Shown piece after piece: positions 35,843 to 41,875 of a DNA stretch of 64,000 bases. The stretch spans positions 186,001-250,000 of the forward strand of contig NZ_FNGC01000005.1 in the NCBI RefSeq assembly GCF_900102785.1. The letters are read 5' to 3'. The notes beneath the pieces were generated by a model, which saw nothing but the letters and a program-made list of their open reading frames with translations, did not search any database and was not told where the DNA came from. The position numbers and the translations under genes are program-made. This DNA is from Arthrobacter sp. ok362. Lineage in GTDB: Bacteria > Actinomycetota > Actinomycetes > Actinomycetales > Micrococcaceae. Numbering within the stretch: position 1 is the stretch's first letter; every line of letters starts with the position of its first letter.

Positions 35843-36952
35843 TTATCCGTGGCTCGGGGGACGAGCTGGTTCGGCCGGCCCTGCCTGGGCGAACGTGGGC
35901 ACGGTCGTCACGGATCCCACGTTCGGGAGTGCCTGGCGGGTGGCGTGGTCGAGTTCGTCGTGGATAGTGGCAAGCTCCCCTAAAAGGGTGATCGCGGTCA
36001 GTGGGATGGAAACCTCGACGTGAAGCCGGTGGCCGGACCAGCGCAGCCGGGACGTTGCGCCCTCGGGGGCGTGGGCGGTGACAACTGCTGCCAGGCGGTC
36101 CGTGAGGTTCGGGTCGACGCCGTCCATGAGCCGGCGCCCAATGTCGCGAATGGTTCCCCACAGCAGCACGGCGATTGCTGCGGAGATGAGCAGGCCCACG
36201 ATCGGGTCCGCGAGGGGGAACCCGAGCCATATGCCGATGACTCCTGCGACGACGGCCAGTGAGGTGAAGCCGTCCGTGCGGGCGTGAATGCCATCGGCGA
36301 CGAGCGCGGCGGAGCCGATCCGTCGTCCCACGCGGATCCTGTAGATCGCGACGAGTTCGTTGCCGGCAAAGCCCACAAGCCCGGCGGCGAGCACCCAGCC
36401 CAGGTTCTGGACCGGCTGGGGTTCAAAGAAACGGCGGATGGATTCGACGGCGGCCACGACGGCCGAGAGTGCGATCATCGCCACGATGAATAGCCCTGCG
36501 AGGTCCTCGGCACGGCCGAATCCGTAAGTGTACGTCCGGGTCGCGCGGCGGCGTCCGAGCAGGAAGGCGATCCACAGCGGCACGGCGGTCAGGGCATCGG
36601 AAAAATTGTGGACCGTGTCCGCCAGCAACGCCACGGAGCCGCTGATGAGGACGATGACCAGCTGGAACAGTGACGTGGCCCCCAGCCCGAGCAGGGAGAC
36701 CTTGACAGCGCGAATGCCCTGGGAGCTTGTCTCCATGGCTGAGTCGATCGAGTCTGCCGCATCATGGGAGTGGGGCACGAAGAGCTCTTGCAGCCACCCC
36801 TTGAACCCGGTCGCGTGAACATGCCCGTGCGGGCCGTGGTGATGGTGATGGTCGTCGTCGTGAGCTTGAAGGTCGCCCTTGTCTGCGCCGCGGTCAGAGT
36901 GACCGTGCGCGTGCGGGTGGATGTCGTGGCCGGGATGCATCGGCTGGTTCAT
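35843..36952 (-). CDS. Cation diffusion facilitator (zinc-type) with His-rich N-terminus
   Basis: 369 aa. The first 60 residues hold about 18 histidines (HPHAHGHSD, DDDHHHHHGPHGHVH). Six membrane helices follow. The metal-site motifs HNFSD in TM2 and HARTD in TM5 are the HxxxD pair typical of Zn2+ CDF proteins (CzcD/ZitB). A C-terminal cytoplasmic domain includes LRWSGHRLHVEVSIPL. It exports zinc or a similar divalent metal by proton exchange. It overlaps the preceding ArsR/SmtB gene by 4 bp, so the pair forms a metal-sensing efflux unit. Confidence 0.92.
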   Translation of the reverse strand: MNQPMHPGHDIHPHAHGHSDRGADKGDLQAHDDDHHHHHGPHGHVHATGFKGWLQELFVPHSHDAADSIDSAMETSSQGIRAVKVSLLGLGATSLFQLVIVLISGSVALLADTVHNFSDALTAVPLWIAFLLGRRRATRTYTYGFGRAEDLAGLFIVAMIALSAVVAAVESIRRFFEPQPVQNLGWVLAAGLVGFAGNELVAIYRIRVGRRIGSAALVADGIHARTDGFTSLAVVAGVIGIWLGFPLADPIVGLLISAAIAVLLWGTIRDIGRRLMDGVDPNLTDRLAAVVTAHAPEGATSRLRWSGHRLHVEVSIPLTAITLLGELATIHDELDHATRQALPNVGSVTTVPTFAQAGPAEPARPPSHG

Positions 36953-37326
36953 GCGCCGGTCTCCCTCTTGAGGCTGTGCGGAGCTGTGGTGTGATGCGGA
37001 GCTGTGCCGAGGGTGTGTTCGGCCTGGTGAATGGCGTCGGCCACGAGCTGCCAGGCGTGCCCATCCTGCAGGCGGTAGTAAACCTTGGTGCCTTCCTGGC
37101 GGGTGGCGACCATGCGCGCCAGCCGCATCTTGGCCAGATGCTGGGAAACTGCAGCCGCAGATTTCCCGGCCTTTTCAGCAAGCACGTTGACGGGCAGTTC
37201 GCCGTGGCGTAGGGCCAGGATCAGCCTGACCCGGGTGGCATCGGCCAGCATGGCAAAAACCTCCACCGCCAGTTCGACGTACTGGCTGTCCGCGGTGAGG
37301 GTGCAATCATCGCTATCTGCATTCAT
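36949..37326 (-). CDS. ArsR/SmtB-family metal sensor repressor
   Basis: 125 aa. Winged HTH: VFAMLADATRVRLILALRHGELPVNVLAEKAGKSAAAVSQHLAKMRLARMVATRQEGTKVYYRL. The alpha-5 region and C-terminus are histidine-rich (DGHAWQLVADAIHQAEHTLG...HHTTAPH), as in alpha5-type zinc or nickel sensors (CzrA, NmtR). Coupled by a 4 bp overlap to the zinc CDF gene. Its putative operator overlaps its own start codon and the end of the upstream gene. Confidence 0.9.
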   Translation of the reverse strand: MNADSDDCTLTADSQYVELAVEVFAMLADATRVRLILALRHGELPVNVLAEKAGKSAAAVSQHLAKMRLARMVATRQEGTKVYYRLQDGHAWQLVADAIHQAEHTLGTAPHHTTAPHSLKRETGA

Positions 37327-37772: not shown

Positions 37773-37854
37773 GATGTGCGCTCCGGCGTCTTTGGTCCTC
37801 AGCCCGGCGCCGCAGATGGCCTCGCGGATCCTGGTGGCAGCGGGTGAGGTACGG

Positions 37855-38277
37855 TCAGTTTCCGGTGAGCTCCGCGTACAGCTTCTCGACGCGCGCCCGG
37901 ATGTCGTCCCGGACCAGGTTCATGCGTTCTATGCCTTCGATGCCGCGTTCGGAGGGCTCGTCCGTATCCCAGAACTCGAGCCGCTTGCCCTCGCGAGGCT
38001 CGACTTTAGCTTCGTTGCCCAGGACGATAACGACGTCGGCCGCGTCCAGGACTTCGTAGGTGACGGGTTTGGGGTGTTCGCCGGTGATGTCGATGCCGAG
38101 CTCTGCCAGGGAGTCCACGGACTGGGGGTTCAGCGATTCGGCGGGCTTGGTCCCGGCGGAGTGCACCGTGACGGTTCCATTGGCGAGCTGGTTCATGAGT
38201 CCGGCGGCGAGCTGGGATTTTCCGCCGTTCTTGCTGCAGACGAACAGGACGCTGGGTGTTTTCGTGGTTTCGGTCAT
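37855..38277 (-). CDS. Second ArsC-like low-molecular-weight phosphatase-fold protein
   Basis: 140 aa. Fold identical to thioredoxin/mycothiol-type arsenate reductases: VLFVCSKNGGKSQLAAGLMNQLA, TVHSAGTKPAESLNPQSVDSLAELGIDITGEHPK, then ADVVIVLGNEAKVEP. The phosphate loop is C14-SKNGG-K20-S, so the usual arginine of Cx5R is lysine. This may alter oxyanion affinity. The protein could be an arsenate reductase variant or an arsenic-handling partner. Its ATG overlaps the ArsO-like stop by 4 bp. Confidence 0.82.
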   Translation of the reverse strand: MTETTKTPSVLFVCSKNGGKSQLAAGLMNQLANGTVTVHSAGTKPAESLNPQSVDSLAELGIDITGEHPKPVTYEVLDAADVVIVLGNEAKVEPREGKRLEFWDTDEPSERGIEGIERMNLVRDDIRARVEKLYAELTGN

Positions 38278-39704
38278 GCGTTCGATTCTTCCTTATCGGA
38301 GCTGGGGCTGCTGAGCAGTGATGCTGCCAGTTTTTCTTGGCTGGAGCGGCCGTGGGACAGCCCGGTGGGGAATCCGATGAGGACCGGCTCAGCAGCCGCG
38401 CAGCACGAGGACTCGGACGCGACGGCAACTGCGGCCGGAACATCGCAGCTGGTGCCGGCGTCGGTTGAGCAGACACCGGTTTCGGGGAGTTCGAGCTGGA
38501 CGGTGTCCGCGGCCTCGCGGTCACCGGCCAGGGCGGCGGCGACGGAGCGGACCTGTTCGTAGCCGGTGGCCAGCAGAAACGTCGGCGCTCTGCCGTAGGA
38601 CTTCATGCCGACAATGTAGAAGTCCTTTTCCGGGTGCGCCAGCAGCGCTGCCCCGTGCGGGGGGACCGTGCCGCACGAGTGGAATTCAGGGTCGATCAGC
38701 GGACCTAGCTCCACGGGAGCTTCGACGGCCGGGTCCAGGTTCAACCGGAGTTCGCGGAGGATGTTCAGGTCCGGGCGGAAACCGGTGCACGGCACAACGA
38801 CGTCGGCCTCCAGCGTCCGCCCGTCAACCGAAGCTACGGTGACGGCGCCGCCGGTTGACGCGAGGGAAGCGATGCCGAAGCCGGTATGCAGCTCGATGGT
38901 TCCGGCCTCGACCAGGCGGCGGAGCCGTGCGCCGAGCTGGCCGCGGGCAGGCAGGTCGTCCAGATCCCCGCCGCCGTAGACTTTCGCGGCAGAGGCGCCG
39001 CGGATGGCCCAGAGGATCCGGGTGTCAGGTTCGTCCTTGGCGAGGTCGGCGAGGTTGATCAGGGTGTTGGCGGCGGAGTGGCCGGCGCCGACGACCAGGA
39101 CACGGCGGGCGGCGAAAGCTCCACGGTCACTGCCGGTGACGTCGGGCAGCGGGGAGGAAATCCTGGAGGCGACGGCGGGTTCGCCGACGGCGGCCAGCCC
39201 GGAGGTGCCCAGCGGGTTGCGGTTGGACCACGTGCCCGAGGCGTCTATGACACCGGCGGTCGGGTAATCGCGGATGTCGCCGCCGTCGTGCTCGACGCGG
39301 ACCACGAACGGTATGGTGTCGCGGCCGCGCGTGTGGGTCTTGTCCAGGCCCTGGCGAGTGATTGCGAGCACGCGGGCGCCGGTCTGCAGGCGCGAGGCGA
39401 TCTCGGGAAGGGCGGCCAACGGTGTCAGGTACTGGTCGATGAGTTCCCCGCCGTAGGGCACGGCTGTGGGGCGGGGTGCTTCCCAGCCGGAGGCTTCGAG
39501 CAGGCGGACGGCGGCGTCGTCGATGTTGAACCGCCACGGGGAGAAGAGCCGGATGTGGCGCCACTGTTCGATCGCGGCTCCCGCGGAAGGCCCCGCTTCG
39601 AGGATCAGCGGTTCCAGGCCGCGTTCGAGCAGGTGGGCCGCGGCGGCCAGGCCCACGGGGCCGGCGCCGATCACTGCAACGGGAAGGTTTTTCGTTGAAT
39701 CCAT
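38274..39704 (-). CDS. ArsO-like FAD/NAD(P)-binding flavoprotein
   Basis: 476 aa from ATG 39704 (AAAGAGGAC upstream). FAD-binding AVIGAGPVGLAAAAHLLERG at the start; second Rossmann VLVVGAGHSAANTLINLADLA for NAD(P)H; VVPCTGFRPDLNILRELRL and FLLATGYEQVRSVAAAL. This is the flavin-dependent monooxygenase/thioredoxin-reductase-like family found in ars operons (ArsO). The extra C-terminal tail of about 60 residues contains four cysteines (GVCSTDAGTSCD, SESSCCAAAE), suitable for As(III) ligation. It lies between the Cys-rich peptide and the second ArsC. Confidence 0.82.
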   Translation of the reverse strand: MDSTKNLPVAVIGAGPVGLAAAAHLLERGLEPLILEAGPSAGAAIEQWRHIRLFSPWRFNIDDAAVRLLEASGWEAPRPTAVPYGGELIDQYLTPLAALPEIASRLQTGARVLAITRQGLDKTHTRGRDTIPFVVRVEHDGGDIRDYPTAGVIDASGTWSNRNPLGTSGLAAVGEPAVASRISSPLPDVTGSDRGAFAARRVLVVGAGHSAANTLINLADLAKDEPDTRILWAIRGASAAKVYGGGDLDDLPARGQLGARLRRLVEAGTIELHTGFGIASLASTGGAVTVASVDGRTLEADVVVPCTGFRPDLNILRELRLNLDPAVEAPVELGPLIDPEFHSCGTVPPHGAALLAHPEKDFYIVGMKSYGRAPTFLLATGYEQVRSVAAALAGDREAADTVQLELPETGVCSTDAGTSCDVPAAVAVASESSCCAAAEPVLIGFPTGLSHGRSSQEKLAASLLSSPSSDKEESNA

Positions 39705-39733
39705 GTTTGTCCTCTTTCTCATCAGTGAGCGGG

Positions 39734-39753
39734 TTCGGGCGGGCCCGCCCGAA
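39734..39753. repeat. Perfect 20 bp palindrome between the Cys-rich peptide and arsO
   Basis: TTCGGGCGGGCCCGCCCGAA is fully self-complementary. It sits 23 bp after the peptide stop and 30 bp before arsO, without a T-run. As RNA it would form a tight stem-loop protecting or partly terminating the acr3-arsC-peptide message. Confidence 0.75.
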
Positions 39754-39775
39754 GGGGACCGGCGGACAGGGGGGG

Positions 39776-39832
39776 TCAGCAGCAGTCCTGATCCTCGTCG
39801 CAGCAACCGCCGCCGCAGCATCCGGTGTTCAT
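39776..39832 (-). CDS. 18-residue Cys-rich peptide in the arsenic operon
   Basis: ATG 39832 to TGA 39776 encodes MNTGCCGGGCCDEDQDCC: six cysteines in three adjacent pairs (5-6, 10-11, 17-18), four acidic residues and no hydrophobic core. A strong purine run (GGAGAGGGGG) ends eight bases before the ATG. It lies 44 bp after arsC and 71 bp before arsO, on the same strand. Vicinal Cys pairs are ideal As(III) ligands, so an arsenite-binding micro-metallothionein or chaperone is plausible. It could also be a cysteine-sensing leader peptide. I know of no described family. Confidence 0.6.
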   Translation of the reverse strand: MNTGCCGGGCCDEDQDCC

Positions 39833-39876
39833 TCAGCTCACCCCCTCTCCGTCCTTTGTCAGGCGTGCGGTGCCCG

Positions 39877-40299
39877 TTACTGGGCGGCCGGGGTGAGGGA
39901 CGCGATCAGGCCCTCGATGCGGGCCCTGATCTCGTCGCGGATCGGGCGGACGGACTCGACGCCCTGGCCGGCCGGGTCTTCGAGTTCCCAGTCCTCGTAG
40001 CGCTTGCCCGGGAAGACCGGGCAGGTGTCGCCGCAGCCCATGGTGATCACTACGTCGGATTCCTTCACGGCCTCGGTGGTGAGGATCTTCGGGATTTCAG
40101 TGGACATGTCGATGCCGAGTTCTGCCATGGCCTCAACGGCTGCAGGGTTGACCTTGTCCGCGGGCTGGGAACCGGCGGAGCGGACCTCGATCCGGCCCTC
40201 GCCGAGGGTGGTGAGGAAGGCTGCGGCCATCTGGGAGCGGCCGGCGTTGTGGACGCAAACGAACAGGACTGACGGCTTCTTGGCGGTTTCGGTGGTCAT
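39877..40299 (-). CDS. arsC: Arsenate reductase ArsC (arsenate-mycothiol transferase type)
   Basis: 140 aa from ATG 40299 (AGGAGAAC upstream). The low-molecular-weight phosphatase-fold loop is VLFVCVHNAGRSQMAAAF with C15-x5-R21-S. RSAGSQPADKVNPAAVEAMAELGIDMS and VVITMGCGDTCPVFPGKRYEDWELEDPAGQ complete the ArsC pattern, including further cysteines in the GCGDTC loop. It reduces arsenate to arsenite for export by Acr3, using mycothiol or thioredoxin. It follows acr3 by 28 bp in the same operon. Confidence 0.92.
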   Translation of the reverse strand: MTTETAKKPSVLFVCVHNAGRSQMAAAFLTTLGEGRIEVRSAGSQPADKVNPAAVEAMAELGIDMSTEIPKILTTEAVKESDVVITMGCGDTCPVFPGKRYEDWELEDPAGQGVESVRPIRDEIRARIEGLIASLTPAAQ

Positions 40300-40327
40300 G
40301 GTGATGTTCTCCTGCGGGTGTAAGTGG

Positions 40328-41428
40328 TCAGAGGGAGGCAGGGGCGGCTGGTTCGAAGAACCGCTTCCGCGCCCACAGCGCGGCGTAGACGAGGGCAACG
40401 AGCGCGGGGACCTCGATGAGGGGGCCGACGACGCCGGCCAGCGCCTGGCCGGAGGTCACGCCGAAGGTGCCGATCGCCACAGCGATGGCGAGTTCGAAGT
40501 TGTTTCCTGCGGCGGTGAACGCAAGCGTGGTGGTTTTGGCGTAGCCGAGGTCCAGCCGCTTTCCGATCAGCATGCCAGCACCGAAGACCACGAGGAAGTA
40601 GACCAGCAGGGGCAAGGCGATGCGGGCGACATCCAGAGGGCGTGAGGTGATGGTGCCGCCCTGGAGGGCGAACAGCAGCGTGATGGTGAATAGCAGGCCG
40701 TACAGCGCCCACGGCCCCAGTTTCGGCAGGAACGTGTTCTCGTACCAGTCCCTGCCCTTGGCACGTTCACCCATGGTGCGGGTGAGGAAGCCGGCGAGCA
40801 GCGGTAGCCCTAGGAAGACCAGCACGGACGCAGTGATGGCCCAGACGGAGAAGTCCGCGCTGGTGGTGGGCAGGCCCAGCCAGGAGGGCAGGAACTGGAG
40901 GTAGAACCAGCCCAGGGCGCCGAACGCGACAACCTGGAACACCGAGTTGATGGCCACCAGCACTGCGGCCGACTCCCGGTCGCCGCAGGCAAGCTCGTTC
41001 CAGATCATCACCATGGCGATGCAGCGGGCCAGCCCCACGATGATCAGGCCCGTGCGGTACTCGGGAAGGTCGGCGAGGAAAATCCAGGCGAGGGCGAACA
41101 TGAAGGCCGGTGCCAGCACCCAGTTGATCACCAGGGAGGCGAACATCAGTTTGCGGTCGGCAATGACGCGGTGCGTGTGGTCGTAGCGGACCTTGGCCAG
41201 CACCGGGTACATCATCACCAGCAGACCGATGGCGATGGGCAGGGACACTTCGCCGATCTTGACCGCTTCCAGGGCAGTGTTCAGGCCGGGGATCACGTTG
41301 CCCAGAGCCAGGCCCAGCAACATGGCAGCCACGATCCAGGCCGGCAGGAACCGGTCCAGGGTGGAGAGTTTGCCGATGACGGCAGCCTTCCCGGGGTGGT
41401 GCGGCAGTGATTGGGTCTGGACGCTCAC
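40328..41428 (-). CDS. acr3: Arsenite efflux permease Acr3
   Basis: 366 aa from GTG 41428 (AGGAGC upstream). Ten membrane helices. Acr3 hallmarks: LPIAIGLLVMMYPVLAKVRY, the essential-cysteine segment GLARCIAMVMIWNELACGD in TM4, AINSVFQVVAFGALGWFYL, and LAFTAAGNNFELAIAVAIGTFG in TM9. It exports As(OH)3/arsenite (some also antimonite) driven by the membrane potential. First gene of the leftward arsenic operon, divergent from arsR. Confidence 0.95.
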   Translation of the reverse strand: MSVQTQSLPHHPGKAAVIGKLSTLDRFLPAWIVAAMLLGLALGNVIPGLNTALEAVKIGEVSLPIAIGLLVMMYPVLAKVRYDHTHRVIADRKLMFASLVINWVLAPAFMFALAWIFLADLPEYRTGLIIVGLARCIAMVMIWNELACGDRESAAVLVAINSVFQVVAFGALGWFYLQFLPSWLGLPTTSADFSVWAITASVLVFLGLPLLAGFLTRTMGERAKGRDWYENTFLPKLGPWALYGLLFTITLLFALQGGTITSRPLDVARIALPLLVYFLVVFGAGMLIGKRLDLGYAKTTTLAFTAAGNNFELAIAVAIGTFGVTSGQALAGVVGPLIEVPALVALVYAALWARKRFFEPAAPASL

Positions 41429-41454
41429 GGTGCTCCTGTGCTGCTCAGCAAGAT

Positions 41455-41520
41455 TGATGAATGTCGATATGTGCAGTATCACCATCTATATCGATCAATG
41501 TCAATCTATGTGCATAATGG
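41455..41520. promoter_or_regulatory. Divergent ars promoter/operator
   Basis: AT-rich 66 bp between acr3 and arsR. Minus-strand TTGACA (41499-41504) with a GATACT-like -10 serves acr3. Plus-strand CATAAT (41513-41518) ends six bases before the arsR ATG, making arsR probably leaderless. Repeated elements TATGTGCA (about 41469 and 41507) and ATCTATATCGAT form candidate ArsR sites overlapping both promoters. Confidence 0.55.
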
Positions 41521-41524
41521 GTTC

Positions 41525-41875
41525 ATGAATTCTCTGCAAACTCTCGAACCCGTGGTCGAAGCCTCGTGCTGCGTGCCGTCGGCGAAGCCGGCGATGAGCG
41601 CCGAGGTTGCCCAGCAGAGGGCTCTGATCTTCAAAGCGCTGGCCGACCCCAACCGGCTCCGGCTGCTTTCCATCGTCAAGGCCGGCGAGTCCGGAGAGGC
41701 ATGCGTCTGCGACCTCACCGAGCCCCTGGACCTCGGCCAGCCCACCGTCTCCCACCACCTCAAGATCCTGGTCGAGGCCGGGCTGCTGCGCCGTGAAAAG
41801 CGCGGCACTTGGGCCTACTACTCCCTGGTGCCCGGGGCGCTCGAGCAGGCTGCCGGGCTCCTGGCAACCCTGTGA
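41525..41875 (+). CDS. arsR: ArsR-family arsenite-responsive repressor
   Basis: 116 aa. Winged HTH: RALIFKALADPNRLRLLSIVKAGESGEACVCDLTEPLDLGQPTVSHHLKILVEAGLLRREKRGTWAYY. Cysteines occur as an N-terminal pair C15-C16 (EASCCVPS), as in the Corynebacterium-type ArsR, and as C60-x-C62 (ACVCDL), as in the plasmid R773 type. Two classes of As(III) site residue therefore occur in one protein. Probably leaderless. It represses acr3 and itself until arsenite binds. The stop overlaps the next start (GTGA). Confidence 0.92.
   Translation: MNSLQTLEPVVEASCCVPSAKPAMSAEVAQQRALIFKALADPNRLRLLSIVKAGESGEACVCDLTEPLDLGQPTVSHHLKILVEAGLLRREKRGTWAYYSLVPGALEQAAGLLATL

Follow-up and report, generated by a model that had tools for sequence, protein, structure and literature searches.

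A conserved cysteine-rich small reading frame in the ars operons of Micrococcaceae and its predicted role as an arsenite-binding micro-metallothionein

A complete reading frame of 18 codons, which carries six cysteines in three vicinal pairs, lies within the ars operon of Arthrobacter sp. ok362 and belongs to a conserved, in-frame, Shine-Dalgarno-led type of short reading frame that is tied to ars operons. It is very probably translated, to judge from its sequence and those of its relatives, and its product is rather probably a micro-metallothionein, predicted to bind the As(III) made by ArsC through its vicinal Cys pairs.

The small reading frame and its operon

The window, i.e., the whole stretch of 64,000 nucleotides that was analysed (contig NZ_FNGC01000005.1, positions 186,001 to 250,000), contains the following features around the small open reading frame (ORF).

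39776..39832, minus strand: six-Cys small ORF MNTGCCGGGCCDEDQDCC with its stop codon, three vicinal Cys pairs (translation of the minus strand and homologues)
39838..39850, minus strand: Shine-Dalgarno region GGAGAGGGGGTGA (window sequence; near-invariant among relatives)
39734..39753, minus strand: GC-rich palindrome TTCGGGCGGGCCCGCCCGAA, at the place of the relatives' intercistronic hairpin (window sequence)
40328..41428, minus strand: acr3, arsenite efflux transporter (TIGR00832, 420.6 bits, above the cut-off)
39877..40299, minus strand: arsC, arsenate reductase of the LMWP fold (family-model and sequence matches)
38274..39704, minus strand: FAD/NAD(P) flavoprotein of 476 aa, C-terminal tail with an SCC motif, ArsO-like, below the ArsO cut-off
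37855..38277, minus strand: second arsC-like LMWP gene
41525..41875, plus strand: arsR, CgArsR-like, with Cys15-Cys16, and Cys60 and Cys62 as candidate third ligands

On the minus strand, acr3 comes first and is followed by arsC, the small ORF, the flavoprotein, and the second arsC-like gene, with arsR divergent. The ATG of the small ORF is at 39832 and its stop codon at 39778-39776, and the translation of the minus strand bears out the complete six-Cys ORF of 18 residues that had been claimed in a preliminary description, in which the strand was unnamed; read on the plus strand, 39776..39832 gives SAAVLILVAATAAAASGVH. The strong Shine-Dalgarno with good spacing claimed there is also present, as GGAGAGGGGGTGA stands 5 bases ahead of the ATG. 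The ORF begins 44 bases past the stop codon of arsC, and 71 bases lie between its end and the start of the flavoprotein.

A chance ORF was considered and rejected, given that the Cys share of the frame (33%) tops those of the 882 short ORFs (10-60 aa) in the window, where the runner-up reaches 22%, and that no ORF with at least six Cys at 30% or more arose in 15 third-order Markov copies of the window. The region 37800-41600 has no Rfam matches at E up to 1.

The placement between arsC and arsO on one strand, as described previously, stands in respect of arsC and of the position, whereas the presumed arsO is a related flavoprotein instead, which is placed outside the ArsO family because it scores 58.6 bits against the NCBIfam ArsO model (NF040505), with its cut-off of 425. 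Among proteins of solved structure, its relatives by sequence are flavin monooxygenases, a thioredoxin reductase, and further pyridine-nucleotide oxidoreductases, the best of them at E 5.5e-8. The C-terminal tails of these flavoproteins carry an expandable SCC-xPEP-like module in one to four copies (L031-L110, e.g., L079, L068, L070, L075), with four reached in L079, and the distant homologues have CGCDDTCC-like stretches near the C-terminal end; tethers with Cys pairs thus seem to be a recurrent element of these ars operons.

The ArsR of the window resembles 6j0e, an arsenic-responsive ArsR of C. glutamicum (E 9e-17), with the Cys pair 15-16 aligned. Near the ars operon, a long ORF at 35843-36952 appears from its sequence to encode a cation diffusion efflux transporter whose N-terminus is strongly His-rich, and a second ArsR/SmtB gene lies beside it at 36949-37326.

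Conservation, selection, and range

A DNA profile of the Shine-Dalgarno and the ORF, run over all 337 fetched loci, yielded 110 matches at 65 distinct places. Three match records in which no ATG was recognised were excluded; two of them lie in a tandem-repeat member of one genome (L018, L134), which for this reason is outside the 65, and the third is a second match in L232, whose main match is counted. The 65 places share the ATG start and a near-invariant AGGGGGTGA/AGGAGGTGA, with length changes that stay in frame. By a first-ATG rule with a limit of 40 residues, the ORF is intact at 63 of the 65 places, and 25 of these intact ORFs were absent from the seed set. In L061 the frame is intact from a second ATG, and in L225/L231 (genome G797) the small ORF has no stop codon left and continues in phase into the flavoprotein.

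The 63 intact ORFs encode 12-31 residues, mostly 17-26, and end in TGA (31), TAA (23), or TAG (9); a plasmid copy (L115) is reduced to the 12 residues of MDTGCCTDTGCC. All have a C-terminal CC, preceded by D in 55. Their residues are dominated by C (32.7%) and D (26.6%), followed by G (13.3%), T (9.1%), and then S, Q, E, and N, while the basic and bulky hydrophobic residues are rare, together making up a few percent. The number of Cys per ORF ranges from 4 to 10 and varies by modules (e.g., MTTGCCGDSGCCGDSGCCDDDQDCC), with six in 45 of the 63 members; CC pairs dominate the family and CXC is rare. Among the distinct nhmmer matches with 30 upstream bases, positions -12, -10, and -9 of the Shine-Dalgarno are G in 100%, and the same set has T at -8 (92%), G at -7 (94%), and A at -6 (91%).

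The flavoprotein loci, for which 258 of 395 family genomes have a relative at E up to 1e-60 and to which named genomes contributed 80 loci, provide a second sample, in which 38 of 161 non-identical loci have the small ORF and 123 lack it. The 38 distinct ORFs, which encode 35 different peptides, all have an ATG preceded by a GGGGGTGA- or GGAGGTGA-like site, with stop codons divided among TGA (17), TAA (17), and TAG (4), and with 71-156 bases from the stop codon to the flavoprotein match. The preliminary description had itself staked the peptide on the retention of the Cys pairs, the start, and the Shine-Dalgarno in related ars loci, and these are conserved in the 38 loci and at the 65 places.

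Once seven divergent or long members of the 38 were left out, the remaining 31 ORFs gave a pN/pS of 0.37 over 465 pairs, with a pN of 0.004 at codons that are Cys in either sequence, a pN/pS of 0.47 at the non-Cys codons, and 948, 1212, and 1821 substitutions at the first, second, and third codon positions. In 27 nearest-neighbour pairs, the share of amino-acid changes was below the neutral share, with p 4e-7 under equal rates, and p 0.0017 and 0.015 when transitions were weighted three-fold and five-fold; at the non-Cys codons, the respective values were 1e-4, 0.014, and 0.056. The rows of this test that require both codons to be Cys, or both Asp/Glu, are circular and were left out. Judged from these substitution patterns, the small ORF is under purifying selection, which is modest at the non-Cys codons, and the two sets of results together indicate that the Cys are nearly fixed and the rest is confined to small polar and acidic residues, loosely in sequence. 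None of five members of 20-31 aa matched Pfam or NCBIfam at E up to 1, a search that has little power with queries this short.

Searches that were blind to position were performed on whole genomes. With a protein profile, matches at E up to 1 were obtained in 29 of 395 family genomes; the 16 with E < 0.006 all lie directly upstream of the flavoprotein, and the 14 weaker ones (E 0.009-1) comprise three that are real (L134, L135, L137) and 11 in which the genes of the query set are absent nearby. At E up to 0.02, a revised profile matched 50 of the 206 genus genomes and missed the window's own genome; the 39 positive genomes that were inspected all have the ORF (the copy of G797 without a stop codon), and the other 11 were counted by the profile match alone. 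A DNA pattern search gave one match in the window's own genome and, among the matches listed, all 15 fetched stretches hold the ORF, with 14 of those genomes outside the profile list; this pattern also matches TGG, with many false matches, and its tally of 124/204 is not a gene count. The ORFs of G000, G164, G371, and G393 were found through the flavoprotein loci. The small ORF was confirmed by inspection in 57 of the 206 genus genomes, i.e., in about a quarter.

The class-level profile search had no match in 394 genomes at E up to 0.02, a result that is uninformative because the window's own genome was missed too. An order-level scan through arsC (match in 155 of 248 genomes) provided 90 loci, 13 of them from the window's family, with only some 1.5-2 kb on each side, and the G009 copy, which lies farther from arsC, was missed; nothing similar was found in these loci beyond the window's own ORF, given that L259 is different and L275 offers an unlikely GTG frame. 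The ORF of L259 (774-818), from another family of the order, has 14 codons, is Cys-rich and preceded by a Shine-Dalgarno, reads MADTTCCGGCGCEC, and overlaps with the beginning of an aqpS-like gene, next to arsR and arsC. Nine stretches of viral contigs match a pattern of the ORF, none of which encodes a relative of the flavoprotein. The small ORF was found only in Micrococcaceae by these searches, which could have missed distant members.

The named hosts include Arthrobacter, Pseudarthrobacter, and Paenarthrobacter. All of the five best Arthrobacter-group plasmid records for the ars stretch have the small ORF, one of them in the 12-residue form, and four of these plasmids are typed as conjugative. 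The suspicion that the gene may be unannotated across genomes was supported by these records, in four of which the ORF is uncovered by any listed gene, in a PLSDB gene table that is incomplete; in the fifth, pTC2 of P. aurescens TC1, the call of the flavoprotein gene begins within the small ORF, in another frame. This call (L113, 4983-6512), deposited as a putative secreted protein, is the flavoprotein, to which a start too far upstream was assigned.

When mapped onto a tree of 130 flavoprotein rows, of which 37 have the ORF, the presence label needs 16 changes in comparison with 32.5 for shuffled labels (none of 500 as low), and at least five of the 16 changes are forced by well-supported branches. 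This pattern indicates that the small ORF is inherited within clades, with repeated loss or gain, and it is regarded as accessory because its presence is patchy, both in these changes and in the flavoprotein loci that lack it.

Operon place, hairpins, and the alternatives

Within the searched set of genes, the closest upstream gene on the same strand at the 65 places is trxB (39), arsC (22), aqpS (3), or arsC2 (1), i.e., an ars-operon gene in every case, and the next gene downstream is the flavoprotein (58), arsC (2), or none (5), counts that are partly built in because most loci were fetched through the flavoprotein or arsC, with a position-blind subset that is smaller than the fetched set. 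The ORF is intact after arsC in L209/L229 and L215/L230, where the flavoprotein is gone or left as apparent remnants, and in L324 and L326 the order is arsR-aqpS-ORF-arsC-trxB. In L325, the small ORF is the last matched ars feature, and an unrelated ORF of 423 residues starts 143 bases on.

In two other loci, the small ORF is the final cistron ahead of a terminator-like hairpin. One is L228, which is the same place as L137; here the ORF comes after arsR-aqpS-arsC and ahead of a 15-pair hairpin without a T-run, beyond which a convergent gene reads as a histidine ammonia-lyase; a consensus terminator scan of this locus picked up a short stem with a T-poor tail but passed over the 15-pair hairpin. 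The other is L232, where acr3-arsC-trxB come before the ORF and a long hairpin with a T-run comes after it.

The spacer between the ORF and the flavoprotein carries a hairpin as well. In all 38 loci, a stem of eight or more pairs begins 5-27 bases past the stop codon, whereas shuffled spacers reach eight pairs in 12% on average, and it is longer than 95% of its own shuffles in 35, the exceptions being the window, L005, and L046. When whole spacers were folded and compared with mononucleotide shuffles, 17 of the 38 had a z of -2 or below. The window's own hairpin is within chance (fold z +1.5; an 8-pair stem in 12.5% of shuffles). Most relatives thus have a genuine hairpin at this place, while that of the window is unproven.

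By sequence, 28 of the 38 hairpins are of a CTGCCGG type, nine of a longer CCAACTAGG type, and one, that of the window, of another kind. The longer type forms part of a dispersed palindrome, about 66 bases long with CCCAACTAGGTAGC as its arms, which stands before the flavoprotein in L010, L012, L022, L036, L017, and L024, and whose arm occurs in six of 19 genomes searched, with up to 15 copies per genome in some Arthrobacter. Hairpins identified by eye precede the flavoprotein in loci without the small ORF as well (e.g., L017, L024, L029, L159, L160, L161, L167). The ORFs of L036 and L040 differ at one of 60 bases, and those of L004 and L015 at one of 57, and in both pairs the hairpins are unrelated, so pairing of the ORF with the hairpin is impossible in at least one member of each pair, which leaves antiterminator pairing unsupported.

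An intercistronic hairpin within an ars operon is also found in ars1 of Bacillus CDB3, where the arsC-arsD hairpin is described as a read-through terminator, so that both a short and a long transcript are made (PMC4562236). The present hairpin differs in that it follows the small ORF and has an exchangeable sequence; if it had a role of the CDB3 kind, more of the small ORF than of the flavoprotein would be produced.

Some of these observations bear on a polycysteine leader, in which the stalling of ribosomes at the Cys codons under cysteine shortage would switch the expression of the flavoprotein. A short Cys-rich ORF with a strong Shine-Dalgarno, followed by the stems described above, speaks for such a leader, and cysteine-responsive attenuators exist in Actinobacteria; leaderless polycysteine attenuators that respond to cysteine reportedly govern operons in mycobacteria (Canestrari et al. 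2020). The peptide is like these mycobacterial leaders in being encoded by a very short Cys-rich ORF of an Actinobacterium, but, unlike them, it is Shine-Dalgarno-led, lies inside or at the end of ars operons, and is independent of the hairpin. This explanation is, however, very unlikely, given that the window's ORF is inside the operon, away from the 5' end, that no flavoprotein follows in the fetched stretch at seven of the 65 places (in L228 and L232 a terminator-like hairpin stands there instead), that near-identical ORFs are paired with unrelated hairpins, that such hairpins also precede the flavoprotein in ORF-less loci, that the hairpin of the window falls within the shuffle range, and that the residues between the Cys are limited to a few small polar and acidic kinds. 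The cysteine-sensing form of the leader put forward in the preliminary description is disfavoured because the ORF can be the final cistron and because near-identical ORFs come before unrelated hairpins, as is an attenuator that would use the downstream hairpin, since no alternative pairing is kept and the gene is not always upstream of the flavoprotein.

On the other hand, the peptide might serve one partner. As a chaperone or substrate carrier that brings As(III) to the flavoprotein in particular, it would in effect be a detached version of the flavoprotein's Cys-rich C-terminal tail. Such a role would agree with the flavoprotein being next at 58 of the 65 places, with the SCC modules and CGCDDTCC stretches of the tails, and with the lost stop codon of L225 that joins both frames; it is nonetheless unlikely, given that intact ORFs persist where the flavoprotein is absent from the fetched stretch or a remnant (L209/L229, L215/L230, L228, L232, L324-L326) and that most flavoprotein loci have no ORF. 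The earlier proposal of a chaperone passing As(III) to Acr3 or the flavoprotein is weakened on both counts, by the places without a following flavoprotein and, for an Acr3-only chaperone, by the arsR-aqpS-arsC operons that hold the ORF with acr3 absent from the fetched stretch. A broader function, in which the peptide would serve other soft metals (Cd, Zn, Cu, Ag) as a general metallothionein or thiol reserve or would act as a dithiol reductant for ArsC, is quite unlikely. Cys pairs bind many soft metals and would suit such a reserve, a cation efflux transporter-like ORF lies near the window's ars genes, and trxB, as the commonest upstream gene, makes redox work with ArsC possible; against this, all 65 places are ars loci and none was seen with metal genes alone, in searches that, besides the profile and pattern searches, leaned on ars genes, and vicinal CC dominates the family where CXC is rare. 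A general cytosolic buffer of As(III) fits better than a chaperone with one partner because the ORF occurs in operons of both the Acr3 and the AqpS type, with or without the flavoprotein.

Predicted arsenite capture and its significance

Metallothioneins are small proteins with about 15-35% Cys, clustered as CXC or CC, of which CXC is usual, and the bacterial and fungal ones include SmtA, MymT, and the small fungal Cu-metallothioneins. The present family is likewise small and very Cys-rich (about one third over the 63 members), has its Cys clustered as CC, lacks a hydrophobic core, and is predicted to bind metal through thiolates; it is set apart by being far shorter than the bacterial metallothioneins, by CC in the place of CXC, by its richness in Asp, and by its location in ars operons.

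The binding of As(III) through CC pairs is inferred by analogy with the vicinal-Cys sites of ArsR and with ArsD. In CgArsR, the As(III) site consists of Cys15-Cys16 and Cys55 (PMC11868830), and the vicinal pair recurs in the small peptide and, at 15-16, in the window's ArsR, although the former is the site of a repressor and the peptide a proposed buffer. The site of AfArsR is formed by Cys95-Cys96-Cys102 (PMC2440759). ArsD, described as a protein of 124 residues with the pairs Cys12-Cys13 and Cys112-Cys113 that delivers As to ArsAB (PMC2440759), shares with the peptide the vicinal Cys pairs and the ars operon; it serves ArsA, however, whereas the neighbours of the peptide are acr3, arsC, the flavoprotein, and the second arsC. 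With 18 residues, the peptide does not match an ArsD metallochaperone, which has about 120 residues and ArsA as a partner.

In the micro-metallothionein reading, the release of ArsR would induce the operon, and ArsC would reduce arsenate and thus free As(III), which the Cys pairs may capture before the vicinal thiols of essential enzymes are hit. With three thiolates per As(III), a six-Cys peptide would hold about two As(III), which could then be handed by thiol exchange to whichever exit the operon provides, i.e., Acr3, the aquaporin AqpS, or the flavoprotein, while the peptide would owe its solubility and charge to the Asp-rich body.

No published description of such a peptide was found in the open-access literature, a scope outside which most subscription journals lie. 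The genome paper of an arsenic-resistant Arthrobacter describes an arsR-acr3-arsC operon (PMC5259909), and the terms "cysteine-rich" and "small peptide" are absent from a review of metals in Actinobacteria (PMC7767326). There is about an even chance that the small ORFs represent a family, hitherto undescribed, of micro-metallothioneins that are encoded in the genome, bind arsenite, and rank with the smallest metal-binding proteins known. Such a family would be a ribosomal counterpart of phytochelatin, carried by Arthrobacter relatives on chromosomes and conjugative plasmids and tuned by the gain or loss of whole CC modules.

Few bacterial resistance systems have been studied as closely as the ars operons, yet about one genome in four of a single soil genus has this gene of mostly 17-26 codons. 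The joint conservation of the Shine-Dalgarno, the frame, and the place in the operon can thus reveal genes that fall short of the usual length limit. If the peptide traps arsenite, it would be among the smallest metal-binding proteins known and would offer a minimal arsenic-binding tag for sensors or clean-up, and the arsenic resistance of these bacteria would gain a missing step, i.e., cytosolic buffering between ArsC and efflux.
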